A stretch of 64,000 nucleotides of DNA from a virus. The stretch lies in IMG/VR virus record IMGVR_UViG_3300020442_002322, positions 24,808 through 88,807 of that record. One strand, given 5' to 3'. Numbering within the stretch: position 1 is the stretch's first letter; the number at the start of each line of letters is the position of its first letter. The notes beneath the pieces were generated by a model. That model did not search any database, was not told the origin of the DNA, and was given only the letters and a program-made list of their open reading frames with translations. This document shows, piece by piece, positions 52,402 to 60,212 of the stretch. The position numbers and the translations under genes are program-made.

Positions 52402-53577
52402 ATGTCAGAACTACTAGAAAGTCGCTGGCAGGAAACCAAAGGCGCACTTCTTGAAGGCCTAAATGGCAACAAGAAAGCTGTTATGTCTGCAACGCTTGAG
52501 AACACTCGCAAGCATTTGATGGAGACAGCTACAGCTGGTGCAACTTCTGCCGGTAATGTCGCAACACTTAATCGTGTTATCCTACCCGTTATCAGACGTG
52601 TAATGCCAACAGTTATTGCAAATGAACTAGTTGGTGTACAGCCTATGACAGGTCCAGTGGGTCAAATCCACACATTGAGAGTACGCTACTCAGACACAGC
52701 AGGCACAGGCGCAAGCGGTGCTGTAGCTGGTGAGGAAGCACTTTCACCATTTAAAATTGCGCAAGCATATTCAGGTGATACAACAAATGCAACAGCAGAT
52801 GCTACTGCATCACTTGAAGGTTCAGCTGGTAATCAACTAAGCATCCAAATCTTAAAGCAAACTGTTGAAGCTAAATCAAGAAAGCTATCAGCACGTTGGA
52901 CTTTTGAGGCGGCACAAGATGCTCAGTCACAGCATGGAATTGATGTTGAAGCTGAAATTATGGCGGCTTTAGCGCAAGAAATTACTGCTGAAATTGACCA
53001 AGAGATCCTAGCATCTCTACGTACACTTTCAGGTACAGCAGTTGAAACATACGACCAAGCGGCGGTATCAGGTACTGCAACTTTCGTTGGTGACGAACAT
53101 GCGGCTTTAGCTGTTCAAATCAACAGAGCGGCTAACTTGATTGCTCAGCGTACACGTCGTGGTGCAGGTAACTATGCAGTTGTTAGCCCATTTGCGTTAA
53201 CAATTCTACAATCTGCAACAACTTCAGCGTTCGCAAGAACAACTGAAGGTGCATTTGAAGCACCAACAAACACTAAGTTTGTAGGTACTCTAAACAATGC
53301 AATGCGTGTATATGTTGACACATACGCAGGTGACGGTACAGCAGTACTAGTTGGTTACAAAGGTTCAAGCGAATCAGATGCACCAGCATTCTACTGCCCA
53401 TACATTCCACTAATGTCAAGTGGTGTTGTAATGGATCCATCAACATTCGAACCAGTTGTGAGCTTCATGACTAGATACGGATACGTGGAACTAAGCAATA
53501 CAGCTTCGTCATTAGGTAATGCGGCTGATTACCTAGCAAACGTTGCGATTACAAACGGTAACGTAAGCTTCAGCTAA
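52402..53577 (+). CDS. 23: gp23, major capsid protein (391 aa)
   Basis: The HK97-fold T4-type capsid protein has the conserved stretch ILPVIRRVMPTVIANELVGV, then QPMTGPVGQIHTLRVRYSD, and later SARWTFEAAQDAQSQHGID and FYCPYIPLMSSGVVMDPSTF. Residues ~1-45 before ATAGATSAGN are probably the propeptide removed by gp21 (LMETATAG resembles a cleavage context). At 391 residues it is shorter than T4 gp23 (521) because the insertion domain is absent, as in other small-capsid marine relatives. AAGGAG lies just upstream, and a strong terminator follows. Confidence 0.96.
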   Translation: MSELLESRWQETKGALLEGLNGNKKAVMSATLENTRKHLMETATAGATSAGNVATLNRVILPVIRRVMPTVIANELVGVQPMTGPVGQIHTLRVRYSDTAGTGASGAVAGEEALSPFKIAQAYSGDTTNATADATASLEGSAGNQLSIQILKQTVEAKSRKLSARWTFEAAQDAQSQHGIDVEAEIMAALAQEITAEIDQEILASLRTLSGTAVETYDQAAVSGTATFVGDEHAALAVQINRAANLIAQRTRRGAGNYAVVSPFALTILQSATTSAFARTTEGAFEAPTNTKFVGTLNNAMRVYVDTYAGDGTAVLVGYKGSSESDAPAFYCPYIPLMSSGVVMDPSTFEPVVSFMTRYGYVELSNTASSLGNAADYLANVAITNGNVSFS

Positions 53578-53680: not shown

Positions 53681-54052
53681 ATGAAACACAAACATTTAAT
53701 AATACGAGCGGAAGTTAGTAACCCACCTAGGTACGAGCAAAATATTATTGATTGGACAAAACATTTAATCCAAGACATTGGCATGAAGATTTTGCTAGGT
53801 CCATATGCAACGTACTGTGATAAAGAAGGTAACAAAGGCTATACTTGTGCAACAATTATAGAAACTTCCCACGTTGTTGTACACACATGGGACGAAGTTA
53901 GTCCTAAACTTGTACAACTAGATGTTTATACGTGCAGTGAATTGGATATCAGAACAGTGTTTGACGCACTAGATAAATGGGATCCAATTAAAATAGATTA
54001 CAAATATCTTGATAGAGAAACTAATCTTACAGAAGTATTAGATACTAAATAG
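53681..54052 (+). CDS. speD: SpeD-type pyruvoyl decarboxylase (123 aa)
   Basis: This is a small S-adenosylmethionine decarboxylase-type proenzyme. Residues matching the bacterial enzyme are S63 in ETSHVVVH (pyruvoyl-forming serine), H68 in HTWDE, and C85 in DVYTC. The residue before the cleaved serine is Thr instead of the usual Glu. The canonical reaction yields decarboxylated AdoMet for spermidine synthesis. However, some phage SpeD relatives are known to have become ornithine or arginine decarboxylases, so the substrate is not certain. There is no Shine-Dalgarno sequence and almost no leader. The next elements are the glutamine-type riboswitch and its small gene. Confidence 0.88.
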   Translation: MKHKHLIIRAEVSNPPRYEQNIIDWTKHLIQDIGMKILLGPYATYCDKEGNKGYTCATIIETSHVVVHTWDEVSPKLVQLDVYTCSELDIRTVFDALDKWDPIKIDYKYLDRETNLTEVLDTK

Positions 54053-54055
54053 ATA

Positions 54056-54123
54056 TACGTTCAGCCCAAGGGCCGGAAGTAGCATAATGCGAAGGAACGC
54101 ACTCAACTGTAAAAAGGAGAGTG
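54056..54123 (+). promoter_or_regulatory. Downstream-peptide/glnA-type glutamine riboswitch
   Basis: The conserved core is present: CGTTC (54058-54062) pairing with GAACG (54095-54099), GCC/GGC with CAAG loop (54064-54073), then CGGAAGTAG (54074-54082), GCA/TGC (54082-54090) and CGAAGGAACGC (54090-54100). These are the hallmark nucleotides of the glnA and Downstream-peptide RNAs, which bind L-glutamine. A following stem CACTC/GAGTG (54100-54123) covers part of the AAGGAG ribosome site of the 54126 gene and could be the expression platform. The spacing to a short ORF is that of the Downstream-peptide class, otherwise known mainly from cyanobacteria and marine metagenomes. Confidence 0.87.
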
Positions 54124-54298: not shown

Positions 54299-54327
54299 TT
54301 GACTTTTGCGCTAAAGTTTGCTATATT
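54299..54327 (+). promoter_or_regulatory. Sigma70-like promoter of the structured RNA
   Basis: TTGACT (54299-54304), 17-bp spacer, TATATT (54322-54327); predicted start near 54334. No good ORF follows, so the product is most likely the RNA at 54334-54588. Confidence 0.7.
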
Positions 54328-54333
54328 ACTAAC

Positions 54334-54588
54334 ATATGCTACAAAGACTTAGCTAGTCGATGTATATAGTGCAAGGAAGAGGCGTTTACCAGAGCGTCGA
54401 ACTTGGCTGTAAAGGGGTGGTACCCAGGCATGGTAGTAGAAATACGCTGTGTCACATCGCTCTACCGAGCGGCTACAGGCTCCCTGGTTTCAGAATGGTA
54501 TCTGCGGCGAGGGGTTGGAGGTATAACCGAATCCTCCCTATTTTGCATATTTTATAAAGGTTTACCGGGAGACTGGTAAGCCTTTTTT
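54334..54588 (+). ncRNA. Independent structured small RNA of unknown family (about 255 nt)
   Basis: The segment has its own promoter and Rho-independent terminator and is much richer in G+C than the surrounding genes. Helices visible by eye: GACT/AGTC (54346-54358); a long-range closing pair TGCAA/TTGCA (54370-54374 with 54543-54547); CTGTA/TACAG (54407-54411 with 54474-54478); CCAGG/CCTGG (54424-54428 with 54483-54487), which with the previous helix forms a pseudoknot; GGTAG/CTACC (54432-54436 with 54462-54466); and GGAGG/CCTCC (about 54516-54537). It is neither a tRNA nor a cobalamin riboswitch by visible motifs. It could be a trans-acting RNA, or a leader for the receptor gene if the terminator is read through. 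An in-frame 65-codon stretch inside it is taken as chance. Confidence 0.65.
54557..54588 (+). terminator. Rho-independent terminator of the structured RNA
   Basis: Ten-base-pair stem AAGGTTTACC/GGTAAGCCTT (one G-T pair) with an 8-nt loop GGGAGACT and six T. It abuts the -35 box of the receptor promoter. It ends the small RNA but might also attenuate transcription into the receptor gene. Confidence 0.85.
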
Positions 54589-54589
54589 C

Positions 54590-54618
54590 TTGACATTTTT
54601 ATATTTGTTGTATATAAT
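54590..54618 (+). promoter_or_regulatory. Strong sigma70-like promoter of the receptor gene
   Basis: Full consensus TTGACA (54590-54595), 17-bp spacer and TATAAT (54613-54618). The expected start is near 54625-54626, so it coincides with the ATG at 54626: the message may be leaderless. Confidence 0.8.
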
Positions 54619-54625
54619 ATGTTAT

Positions 54626-56347
54626 ATGAAAAAAATATTAATGTTAGTCACAGCTCTGGCTGTGTTTTTTTGTGGCCGGGCTGTCGCAGAGCCCTTAGAG
54701 ATTACTATATACTTGCCACGTACAGCAAGCGATTTAAATTCAACAACATACAGTTATGATTACATTCCGTTAGATGCTCCTATAGCAAATACTAAAGGTG
54801 TTGATATGGTACAAAACGGACCCGCAGGACAAAGCAGTAGTTTGTTTATTCGAGGCACAGAAAGTGATCATAGTTTAATTACATTAAACGGAATTCCTAT
54901 AAAGGACAACAGCACTCCGAGTGGTGCAGATGATCTAAGTCAACACAGTTTGCTAGGAATGAATAATATTGTAGTCATAAAGGGCCCTGTGAGCAACGTA
55001 TACGGGCCTAATGCGGCAGGTGGTGTAGTTGATATGCAAACTACAACAATAGGCGATAATTATGTAGATTTTACAATAGGATCAAACAATTATGTAAGCA
55101 AAGAAATTAGTATTGTTGATAAAAAGTTTGATGATAATCACAACTTTAAACTTGTACTAAATCAAACTACAACAGACGGTATAAGTGTTTATGCTGATGG
55201 TACAGAAGACGATCCGTTAGAAACAAACAGTTACAATTTTAATTGGGATTATTATAGTAACAAGTATGTCCTAACTTTTAATAAAATTTATGATCGCAAT
55301 GAAAGTAATTTAGATAGCAGTAGTGCAGATGTTTTAAACTACACAGGTGATTGGATATGGAACAACAATCAAATCATTTGGCAAGCAGAAGATACAAAAG
55401 TTGTGTTAAACAATAGCACACACGACAGAACTTACAATAAAAATAACGTAGTAGACGAATACAATAGTGAAAATAATTCTTATTTTGTGGAACATAAATT
55501 TAACAAAGAAAATTATGATTATATTATAGGTTGGGATTATACAGAATCTAGTGCAGACTTTGCTACAAACATTAACAATTATCAAAGCAGTGTAAATGAA
55601 AATAGATATACAACTGGTGCTTTTTTCGAATTAGATAAAATGTATTCAAATGGAATAATAAGTTTTAGTAGTAGACTAGATAGTATTAGTGATTTTGACA
55701 ATCAAGTTAGTTCAAGAATAGGCGGAAGTTATAATAACTTTAGAGCAAGTTATTCACAAGGATACAGATTACCTACACTATATGAAATGTATGGTATAGA
55801 CAGCTATGGATACAACGGAAATCCTAACTTAGAAACAGAAGATTTAGATAGTTATGAAATAGGTTATAGAAACAACGGTTTTGATATTGCACTATTTTAT
55901 ATAGAAGAATCTAATCCTATTACATATCAAAGCAGTACATATGTTAATGTAGCAGAAGGTGGAGACAGCAAAGGTGTTGAAGTTAGTTATAATAAAGATT
56001 ATAAAGGGTACTTTTTTAATACTAGCACAACTTATACAGAAGCAAAACTAGCAAATGGCAATGATAAGTTACGCAGACCAAATTGGATCAATAATACAAG
56101 TATTTCAAAAGACATATTTAAAATTAACATGAATTACCATGGAAGTCATAAAGATATTGACGGAACAACCTATGCAACTGTTGATAAACCTAGTGTTACT
56201 ACATTTGATTTTGAAGTAAATAAAACTATAGAAAATAAAATGTTATACTTTGGTTTATACAATATTACTGATGTTGATTATGAACGTCCAGATGGCTACA
56301 ATCAAGATGGTATCAATTTCAAAGCAGGTATAAAAATAATAATGTAA
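54626..56347 (+). CDS. btuB: BtuB-type TonB-dependent outer-membrane receptor (573 aa)
   Basis: The ATG at 54626 gives a typical signal peptide (KKILMLVTALAVFF core, cleavage after AVA). A short TonB-box-like segment (LEITIYLPRTAS) follows. Plug-domain motifs are SSLFIRGTESDHSLITLNG and IVVIKGPVSNVYGPNAAGGV, close to the vitamin B12 receptor BtuB. About 430 residues of alternating aromatic/polar strands form the 22-strand barrel, with the usual RLPTLYEMYG and NPNLETEDLDSYEIGYR motifs. The barrel ends in IIM without the common terminal Phe. The gene appears intact. The promoter is early-type. Possible roles are nutrient (cobalamin or other chelate) import for phage production or altering the surface receptor against superinfection. 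Such receptors are rarely seen in phages. Confidence 0.9.
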   Translation: MKKILMLVTALAVFFCGRAVAEPLEITIYLPRTASDLNSTTYSYDYIPLDAPIANTKGVDMVQNGPAGQSSSLFIRGTESDHSLITLNGIPIKDNSTPSGADDLSQHSLLGMNNIVVIKGPVSNVYGPNAAGGVVDMQTTTIGDNYVDFTIGSNNYVSKEISIVDKKFDDNHNFKLVLNQTTTDGISVYADGTEDDPLETNSYNFNWDYYSNKYVLTFNKIYDRNESNLDSSSADVLNYTGDWIWNNNQIIWQAEDTKVVLNNSTHDRTYNKNNVVDEYNSENNSYFVEHKFNKENYDYIIGWDYTESSADFATNINNYQSSVNENRYTTGAFFELDKMYSNGIISFSSRLDSISDFDNQVSSRIGGSYNNFRASYSQGYRLPTLYEMYGIDSYGYNGNPNLETEDLDSYEIGYRNNGFDIALFYIEESNPITYQSSTYVNVAEGGDSKGVEVSYNKDYKGYFFNTSTTYTEAKLANGNDKLRRPNWINNTSISKDIFKINMNYHGSHKDIDGTTYATVDKPSVTTFDFEVNKTIENKMLYFGLYNITDVDYERPDGYNQDGINFKAGIKIIM

Positions 56348-56829
56348 TGAACAAATTGCTTTGGTTTCTGTTTTTTGTTTTAATTTTAGCTCTAAGTAGA
56401 ATAATACCACATCCACCTAATTTTACACCTATACTTGCTGTAGCAATTTTTGCTCCACTAGTTATTACTAATATTTGGGCTGTAATACTAGGAGTATTGT
56501 GTGCTATGATTATTGCTGATTTCTATTACGGATTGCATAGTTATATGATATGGACATATAGCACTATTGCAATTAGCACATTAATGGCAACTAGAATAAA
56601 ATTATTGCCAATGATGTTTATAAGTCCTATCCTATTTTTTGTAATTACAAATTTTGCCGTTTGGACATCAGGATATTACGGATATACATTAGTTGGGTTG
56701 ATTGCATGTTATACAGCCGCTATACCATTCTTCAGCATGACACTATTAAGCACAATTTTCTATACATCTTGTTTTTATTTGCTATACAAAGCAACACATT
56801 CACTAAAAACACCTACTAGTTCTTTTTGA
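56347..56829 (+). CDS. Five- or six-span inner-membrane protein coupled to the receptor (160 aa)
   Basis: It starts by TAATG overlap with the receptor stop, so it is translationally coupled. Hydrophobic spans lie at about residues 3-20, 27-45, 48-63, 68-82, 90-107 and 117-147. The motif SRIIPHPPNFTPILAVAIFA near the N-terminus and FVITNFAVWTSGYYGYTLVGL match a family of small membrane proteins (DUF6580 type) that resemble substrate-binding S components of ECF vitamin transporters. These often lie beside btuB in bacteria. The pair would therefore be an outer-membrane and an inner-membrane step of the same uptake route. Transport function is inferred; no ATPase or T component is seen here, so it would have to use host partners or act alone. 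Confidence 0.75.
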   Translation: MNKLLWFLFFVLILALSRIIPHPPNFTPILAVAIFAPLVITNIWAVILGVLCAMIIADFYYGLHSYMIWTYSTIAISTLMATRIKLLPMMFISPILFFVITNFAVWTSGYYGYTLVGLIACYTAAIPFFSMTLLSTIFYTSCFYLLYKATHSLKTPTSSF

Positions 56830-56845: not shown

Positions 56846-56912
56846 ATAGCGAGCCGCGAGGCGGACTTATGCTGTACCCACAGCGTAGCTCATAGAACGG
56901 GCATTGGACTAC
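56846..56912 (+). ncRNA. Structured leader before the 56930 gene
   Basis: The ~90-nt leader of the late message is G+C-rich for this genome and can fold as a three-way junction: GAGC/GCTC (56851-56854 with 56888-56891) enclosing CGC-GAG-GCG (56855-56863) and ATGCTGT-ACCC-ACAGCGT (56869-56886). It ends before TATAGGAG, the ribosome site. No known riboswitch was recognised. Confidence 0.5.
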
Positions 56913-56929
56913 TTATATAGGAGAAAAAA

Positions 56930-57379
56930 ATGGGAAGACCACTAAACAAAAGATATTTTGGAACACCTACAGCAGGTGGCCAAGAAATTAAAGTAAACTT
57001 TCACAATGGAACAGCAGTAAAAGAAGGTTACATTGTAAAGCAAAAAGGCTCAAAAAAATTCGTATGTGAAGAAATTGGAACAGCAGGTGAATTTACTTGC
57101 ACACTAAAAACTGGTATTTTACCAGCGGCTTTGAGTGCAGGCGAAATGACAATTTCTGTAAAAGGCGATGATTCAGAAACTTACGGTGTAAGCAAAATTA
57201 CAGGACGTAAAGCAACTGTAGTAGCACCAAGTGCAACTGGGTCAAACGCACTAGACGGAACATCAATTGCTTGGAACTATTCAACTGCAACTAATGACAG
57301 CGCAGTACAAATAGAAGAAGCTGGTGATGATAACACATTATCAGGTACAGACGACGACGACTTTACAGATGATGCATAA
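56930..57379 (+). CDS. Virion structural protein (149 aa)
   Basis: It begins MGRPLNKRYFGTPTAGGQEI. A compact beta-rich core (VKEGYIVKQKGSKKFVCEEI, TGILPAALSAGEMTISVKG) is followed by an acidic Asp/Ser/Thr tail ending TDDDDFTDDA. Proteins with this opening occur in marine T4-like phages among virion genes; the exact place in the particle is unknown. AGGAG precedes the ATG. The transcript begins at the late box 56828 and has a structured leader. A G/C-rich hairpin follows the gene. Confidence 0.65.
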   Translation: MGRPLNKRYFGTPTAGGQEIKVNFHNGTAVKEGYIVKQKGSKKFVCEEIGTAGEFTCTLKTGILPAALSAGEMTISVKGDDSETYGVSKITGRKATVVAPSATGSNALDGTSIAWNYSTATNDSAVQIEEAGDDNTLSGTDDDDFTDDA

Positions 57380-59255: not shown

Positions 59256-60212
59256 ATGGCATCACTAAAATCATTACTAGGATCAAAGAACTTTACAGCA
59301 GATGAAGTCAACTTAGAACAGGGCAGAATTTGGTCATATAACAATGGTACCATGTACTCAAGATTATGTAACGGATTTTGCTGGAGAGCTCCAGGCGGCG
59401 GCGAAGCAACTATTGAAATGTGGGGCGCAGGTGGTTCTGGTGCTAGAATGTGTTGTTGCGGTGGAGGTATTCCAGGCAACGCGGCAGGTTATTCAAGACG
59501 TACAATAAGCGTAGCGTCTGATTGCAGAATTTGCGGATCGACAGGTAAATCCTGTGGTAATGCAAGTTCTTTATGTTTCAGAGGCTGTGGTGAAAGCTCA
59601 GGACTATGTTGGTTCTCAACTTCAGGCAACGGTTGTATGTGTGCCCAAGGTGGACGCGGCGGTATTTCAATGTGTTCAACTTCTCCAAGTTTATATTGCT
59701 GTTATCGTGCTCAAGGTTATTGTACAACAAACAGAGGTCCAAACTGTGGACTTGTTTGTAATCAATGTTCAGGCGCATGGAGAGCATGTGGCTACGGCGG
59801 TGACGTAAACTGTTGCGGTTGTATTTCTTGTGCAAGTTTCCTAGGATGTTATCCACAATGTACATGTATGCACTACTATCACGTAGCACTTCCTGCAAAC
59901 ATTATTGCACAGTGCGGAACTATTGTTACATACGCAACAGAGTCAGACAATCCATACTCACGTTGGTCAGGTATGGGACAACACCAGTACATTAACGCAC
60001 TAAACGCGGCAAGTAGAAATCCATCAATTGGTGTTTATCACGGTAGTTGTTGGATGGGTAACAGAGCATGTCAGTGTTACGAGATGCTAGGTTGTCAACA
60101 CCAAGTTCCATACGGATCAGGCGGTCCTGCGGCAAATCCATGTCCAGGTGTTAGAGATCACGGATGGCGCGGCGGCCAAGGTGCTGTTAGAATCAAATAC
60201 ATCGAAAGTTAA
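59256..60212 (+). CDS. Cysteine- and glycine-rich virion protein (318 aa)
   Basis: I count 34 Cys in 318 residues (about 11%), including CCC near residue 62 and many C-x-x-C and CC pairs. The N-terminal opening (SLKSLLGSKNFTADEVNLEQ) and the closing GGQGAVRIKYIE match glycine-rich phage tail proteins, in which GGxGAVRI forms the end of a Gly-rich beta sandwich. The Cys-rich middle may be held by disulfides outside the cell or bind metal. It has its own late promoter box and sits beside the giant fibre gene, so it is likely a surface or adhesin component. Codon use is similar to its neighbours. Confidence 0.7.
   Translation: MASLKSLLGSKNFTADEVNLEQGRIWSYNNGTMYSRLCNGFCWRAPGGGEATIEMWGAGGSGARMCCCGGGIPGNAAGYSRRTISVASDCRICGSTGKSCGNASSLCFRGCGESSGLCWFSTSGNGCMCAQGGRGGISMCSTSPSLYCCYRAQGYCTTNRGPNCGLVCNQCSGAWRACGYGGDVNCCGCISCASFLGCYPQCTCMHYYHVALPANIIAQCGTIVTYATESDNPYSRWSGMGQHQYINALNAASRNPSIGVYHGSCWMGNRACQCYEMLGCQHQVPYGSGGPAANPCPGVRDHGWRGGQGAVRIKYIES

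Follow-up and report, generated by a model that had tools for sequence, protein, structure and literature searches.

A BtuB-type receptor gene coupled to a DUF6580 gene in a virus genome, and its probable role in vitamin B12 import

The window analysed here is a 64,000-nucleotide stretch (bases 24808-88807) of the 88,807-base IMG/VR record of a T4-type marine virus, and coordinates are those of the window unless another record is named. On its plus strand lie two adjoining genes, one for a 573-aa BtuB-type TonB-dependent receptor (54626..56347), identified by Pfam, NCBIfam, PDB sequence and fold searches and by an N-terminal alignment, and one for a 160-aa helical membrane protein (56347..56829), identified by Pfam (PF20221), its AlphaFold model and its invariant residues, which we propose as the inner-membrane step of cobalamin uptake. 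The receptor stop codon TAA (56345-56347) and the ATG of the DUF6580 gene at 56347 share one base, i.e. the two reading frames are joined by the TAATG (56345-56349) on which the original prediction of their translational coupling rested. The locus is viral, because the left flank is formed by the gene for the major capsid protein gp23 (52402..53577, plus strand; PF07068, E 2e-99). A speD-type S-adenosylmethionine decarboxylase gene (53681-54052) adjoins gp23. To the right of the pair, a freshwater-2 RNA (56853..56932, plus strand; 58.8 bits) forms the leader of the next structural gene, and in relatives L009, L011, L048 and L054 this RNA likewise follows the pair. Further along, 59256-60212 encodes a 318-aa Gly- and Cys-rich, structural-looking protein with CCC and GGG runs.

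The consensus promoter that had been predicted ahead of the pair is present: TTGACA-17-TATAAT (54590..54618, plus strand) matches the sigma-70 consensus at 12/12 positions, and TTGACA with an A/T-rich -10 region is kept at the equivalent place in six related phages. The start given earlier for the receptor, 54590, is where the -35 box begins, and the most likely start codon is ATG 54626. This ATG lies about 7 nt past the -10 box with no visible ribosome-binding site, and a similar promoter-to-ATG layout is found in the six relatives; the receptor-DUF6580 mRNA is therefore predicted, from these sequence features, to be leaderless and to start at about the ATG.

Immediately upstream is a self-contained unit of promoter, structured RNA and terminator (54299-54585) that stands behind gp23 in phages with and without the pair and looks more like an independent small RNA than like a leader. 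It comprises a promoter (54299..54327, plus strand; 10/12 matches, conserved), a manA-type RNA (RF01745; 54347..54547, plus strand; 45.4 bits, E 9e-10, against a gathering score of 55.2 bits) and an intrinsic terminator (54556..54585, plus strand; 13-pair stem and T tail) whose stem sequence varies among relatives while the hairpin and T run are kept. We considered the manA-type RNA as a regulator of the pair and rejected it, as the RNA also occurs in pair-lacking relatives and the terminator separates it from the pair. For the same reasons it is best regarded as a native phage RNA, probably unrelated to the pair; it is found at the equivalent place in L009, L010, L011, L048 and L054, and T4-like cyanophages are known to have manA RNAs (PMC2864571). 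A glutamine (glnA) riboswitch (54056-54103; 51 bits) precedes a 63-aa ORF without known family, and is also present upstream of the pair in L009, L010, L011, L048, L049 and L054.

As a family, TonB-dependent receptors are defined by a signal peptide, a TonB box, a plug and a 22-strand barrel. In the phage receptor, Pfam matched the TonB barrel (E 4e-25, profile positions 25-436 of 436) and the plug (E 6e-13, positions 30-107 of 107), and the signal peptide is followed by a TonB-box-like strand, PLEITIYLP, which is kept in most phage copies. For the AlphaFold model (pLDDT 89, pTM 0.87), the first twelve fold matches were all to E. coli BtuB, with TM up to 0.83 and E 1.8e-34 over the whole chain, so the barrel fold is complete and the receptor is intact and full-length, as had been claimed. 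The assignment to the BtuB type also held, with BtuB leading the sequence, profile and fold matches alike: E. coli BtuB ranked first in the PDB sequence search (5e-20), and the top NCBIfam family was TIGR01779 (TonB-B12; 5e-41, with the best non-B12 family at 4e-10). The score of 140.9 bits is far below the TIGR01779 curated cut-off of 599.7; bacterial receptors behind cobalamin riboswitches (L138, L151) miss it likewise, which indicates that the cut-off is strict. The receptor thus shares with E. coli BtuB (PDB 1nqh, 2gsk) the full fold, the TonB-box-like strand behind the signal peptide and the best profile, but it is virus-encoded, falls below the family cut-off, is only about 21% identical in the structure alignment and lacks the first plug alpha-helix, which the N-terminal alignment showed to be absent from its clade and from the sister clade.

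The second protein belongs to the DUF6580 family, as predicted: it matched PF20221 over 148 aa with 108.5 bits (gathering score 27; E 5e-31). Among 45 phage and bacterial copies, residues R18, P21, H22, P23, P24, N25, D58, W106 and P127 are invariant and C121 is nearly so. A search of the PDB with the AlphaFold model (pLDDT 90) matched no solved structure by fold and no recognised transporter fold, and the PDB sequence search found no solved DUF6580 homologue. The original prediction had also called this protein S-component-like. Taking either the six-helix S-component fold or profile homology as the mark of an ECF S-component (including BtuM), we found neither, with no PDB fold match and an hhalign result of 0.5% against five S-component-like sequences, and this label is rejected for now. 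Stray matches of single DUF6580 members to CbiM (E 0.003) and to ECF riboflavin models were too weak to identify the protein.

Searching with an alignment query for relatives of the receptor, and for related phage genomes with the same gene pair, identified six more IMG/VR contigs (L009, L010, L011, L048, L049, L054) in which a receptor 68-70% identical to that of the window precedes DUF6580 and again overlaps it by one base. Where the contig is long enough (L011, L048, L049, L054), the pair is flanked by gp23 on the left and by structural genes on the right. The pair sits between gp23 and an MGRP-type gene in independent contigs with the order unchanged, and this excludes the possibility, raised with the original prediction, that the assembly had joined host to phage DNA here. 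In the pair-lacking records L226 and L220, gp23 is separated from the MGRP-type gene by about 145-440 bases, i.e. the slot is empty, and the pair was found in 0/80 gp23-related loci within the flank examined. Among close relatives, dN/dS was 0.03-0.16 for the receptor and 0.06-0.16 for DUF6580, indicating purifying selection on both genes. With gp23 alongside, the same slot occupied in relatives and low dN/dS, the pair can be classed as a phage auxiliary metabolic gene set, i.e. cellular-type genes in a genuine phage genome that are intact and under selection.

Adjacent receptor and DUF6580 genes were found in dozens of viral contigs, and further viral contigs (L006-L008, L029, L033, L034, L036, L037 and others) carry them in reverse order, with DUF6580 first. 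We count pairing in both gene orders as support for DUF6580 as the inner-membrane step. In a receptor tree whose sampling was guided by the phage sequences, and in which L202 is a bacterial record mislabelled as viral, the viral receptors that were sampled group in a single clade, separate from the bacterial receptors sampled (SH-aLRT 94). In the DUF6580 tree, where L201 carries the same wrong label, viral and bacterial copies are intermixed. Against the import reading, one phage clade (L013-L028, L046) has the receptor with no DUF6580 nearby, and another lacks the receptor and has DUF6580 together with a secreted protein of 120 aa. In such receptor-less phages a secreted, probably beta-strand protein of 115-120 aa, ending in Trp and with no known family, precedes and overlaps DUF6580 (L002 5642-6004, L005 2362-2724, L055 7636-7998, L056 7636-7998, L062 7657-8004); the receptor in L013 and L016 fills the slot held by the 120-aa protein and DUF6580 in L002-L004. 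No true phage match to the pair was found in the phage collection, where the receptor query matched three Salmonella records, two of them annotated as the host B12 receptor.

The link to cobalamin comes from other copies of the pair. In 10/12 bacterial loci tested, in each of which the receptor is followed by DUF6580 and most of which are from Pelagibacteraceae, a cobalamin riboswitch lies 51-153 nt ahead of the pair. Four other viral contigs have an AdoCbl-II riboswitch at their copies, placed either (i) before DUF6580-receptor (L007, L029), in records that contain gp23 and terminase, or (ii) between the DUF6580 and receptor genes, preceded by a promoter-like sequence and followed by a ribosome-binding site (L008, L096), in records where neither gp23 nor terminase profiles matched. 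At the window's own copy we found no cobalamin riboswitch, and that copy is not classed as a cobalamin-regulated locus. We also searched 18 pair-bearing bacterial genomes with the BtuC/FecCD profile and obtained weak matches alone (best 30 bits), and the four that were inspected are ZnuB-like proteins of 267-279 aa. Many of these genomes are partial, so that absence of BtuC is unproven for any single one, but the result was consistent in 18/18; because no convincing BtuC-type permease was found, DUF6580 is the best candidate for the inner-membrane step.

A possible user of cobalamin is encoded by the phage itself. Near the left end of the window's own record, to the left of the window (L212 348-2339), is a gene whose product has a B12-binding domain (7e-10) and a radical SAM domain (3e-9), and the close relative G001 also encodes a B12-binding/radical SAM protein. 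B12-binding domains occurred in 5/13 DUF6580-positive records and 0/12 pair-lacking gp23-related records (Fisher p 0.04, with kinship and length ignored). Against the import reading, several large records that carry the pair lack the B12-binding radical SAM protein. A B12-dependent class II ribonucleotide reductase was considered as a user and rejected, as there is none in the window's record or in its closest relative; the ribonucleotide reductases of other records are about 765-799 aa long and, like class I enzymes, have a CxxC at the C-terminus. No CobS-type AAA_5 protein was found in the window's own record.

The family, fold, completeness, pairing and selection of the two genes and the association of the pair with cobalamin riboswitches were all computed, and together they suggest that the virus encodes, in this pair, a module for importing cobalamin (vitamin B12), a reading that we consider probable from sequence and models. 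Further points that count against it are the missing cobalamin riboswitch at the window's copy, the receptor's low TIGR01779 score, its limited identity to E. coli BtuB and its shortened plug, and the failure of DUF6580 to match any solved protein. We infer cobalamin as the substrate, DUF6580 as a transporter and a benefit to the phage, as follows. The receptor would go to the outer membrane, bind cobalamin and be energised by the host TonB-ExbB-ExbD complex through its N-terminal TonB box. DUF6580 would then carry, or help to carry, cobalamin from the periplasm to the cytoplasm across the inner membrane, replacing BtuCDF. The supply of cobalamin during infection would rise, serving host B12 enzymes and possibly, as a second user, the phage's B12-binding radical SAM protein. 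As many ocean bacteria keep these two genes together behind an RNA switch that senses B12, the virus probably enables its host cell to take up more vitamin B12 during infection. The interpretation in the original prediction stands in part: BtuB identity, the bacterial and four viral riboswitches and the lack of a convincing BtuC favour two-membrane uptake by a phage, with cobalamin as the substrate, and the S-component part is not supported. A bolder account, which we hold tentatively and as something short of probable, is that T4-type marine phages carry full two-membrane B12 import in which DUF6580 is a new, BtuCDF-independent class of transporter, with some copies regulated by AdoCbl riboswitches and the imported vitamin feeding the phage radical SAM enzyme.

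The role suggested earlier as an alternative was superinfection exclusion or receptor exchange, in which the phage barrel replaces or masks the surface receptor that rival phages or bacteriocins use, with DUF6580 in an accessory role. TonB-dependent receptors, including BtuB, are common receptors for phages and colicins, and the separate clade formed by the phage receptors in the sampled tree and the phage clade with a receptor and no DUF6580 would both fit this role. However, it leaves unexplained the coupling to DUF6580 in both gene orders, the cobalamin riboswitches on other viral copies and the retained TonB box, and we consider it unlikely and a weaker rival, ranking below B12 import. Uptake of another TonB substrate, e.g. 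another corrinoid, cobinamide or haem, would be consistent with the distance of the receptor from BtuB of known specificity, with its changed plug and with the missing riboswitch at the window's copy. We give this reading a similarly low probability, since cobalamin riboswitches occur at both bacterial and viral copies of the gene pair and the B12 family leads the receptor's profile matches by a wide margin. That the pair is passive cargo or a host-phage assembly chimera might be suspected from its being missing from some gp23 relatives, but seven independent contigs share it, both genes are under strong purifying selection and dozens of viral contigs have the two genes adjacent, which makes this highly improbable.

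The cobalamin import reading places the pair close to several known systems. The bacterial btuB-DUF6580 locus of Pelagibacteraceae and another alphaproteobacterium contains these two genes as well, with DUF6580 immediately after the receptor; it differs in that it has an AdoCbl-II or cobalamin riboswitch, whereas the window copy has none, and in that the phage receptors are a separate clade in the sampled tree and some phages reverse the order. BtuM, a solitary inner-membrane B12 transporter, is a small membrane protein whose role was predicted from the location of its gene near btuB in bacteria that lack BtuCDF (PMC6072759). DUF6580 is likewise a small membrane protein beside btuB in bacteria with no evident BtuCDF, but it matches no solved structure by sequence or fold. 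Other TonB-dependent receptors are also phage-encoded, i.e. the SusC-like receptor of Mar_Mega_1 (PMC9723777) and phrog_5687, but neither a DUF6580 partner nor a cobalamin link has been described for them. The cultured Pelagibacter strains HTCC1062 and HTCC1002 lack TonB-dependent transporters (PMC3400609), so that the module, provided TonB were present, would give such a host a new capability. Our literature search found no paper naming DUF6580 and none on a phage-borne BtuB, a phage cobalamin riboswitch or the receptor-DUF6580 pair in phages.

In the ocean, vitamin B12 is in short supply and many bacteria depend on importing it. If a virus supplies both membrane steps, B12 supply would become one of the targets of viral takeover, and some viral copies appear to have their own RNA switch for sensing B12. 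DUF6580, a family of unknown function, gains a testable role as the missing inner-membrane B12 step, which would be relevant to SAR11 relatives and to similar bacteria that have BtuB and no evident BtuCDF.
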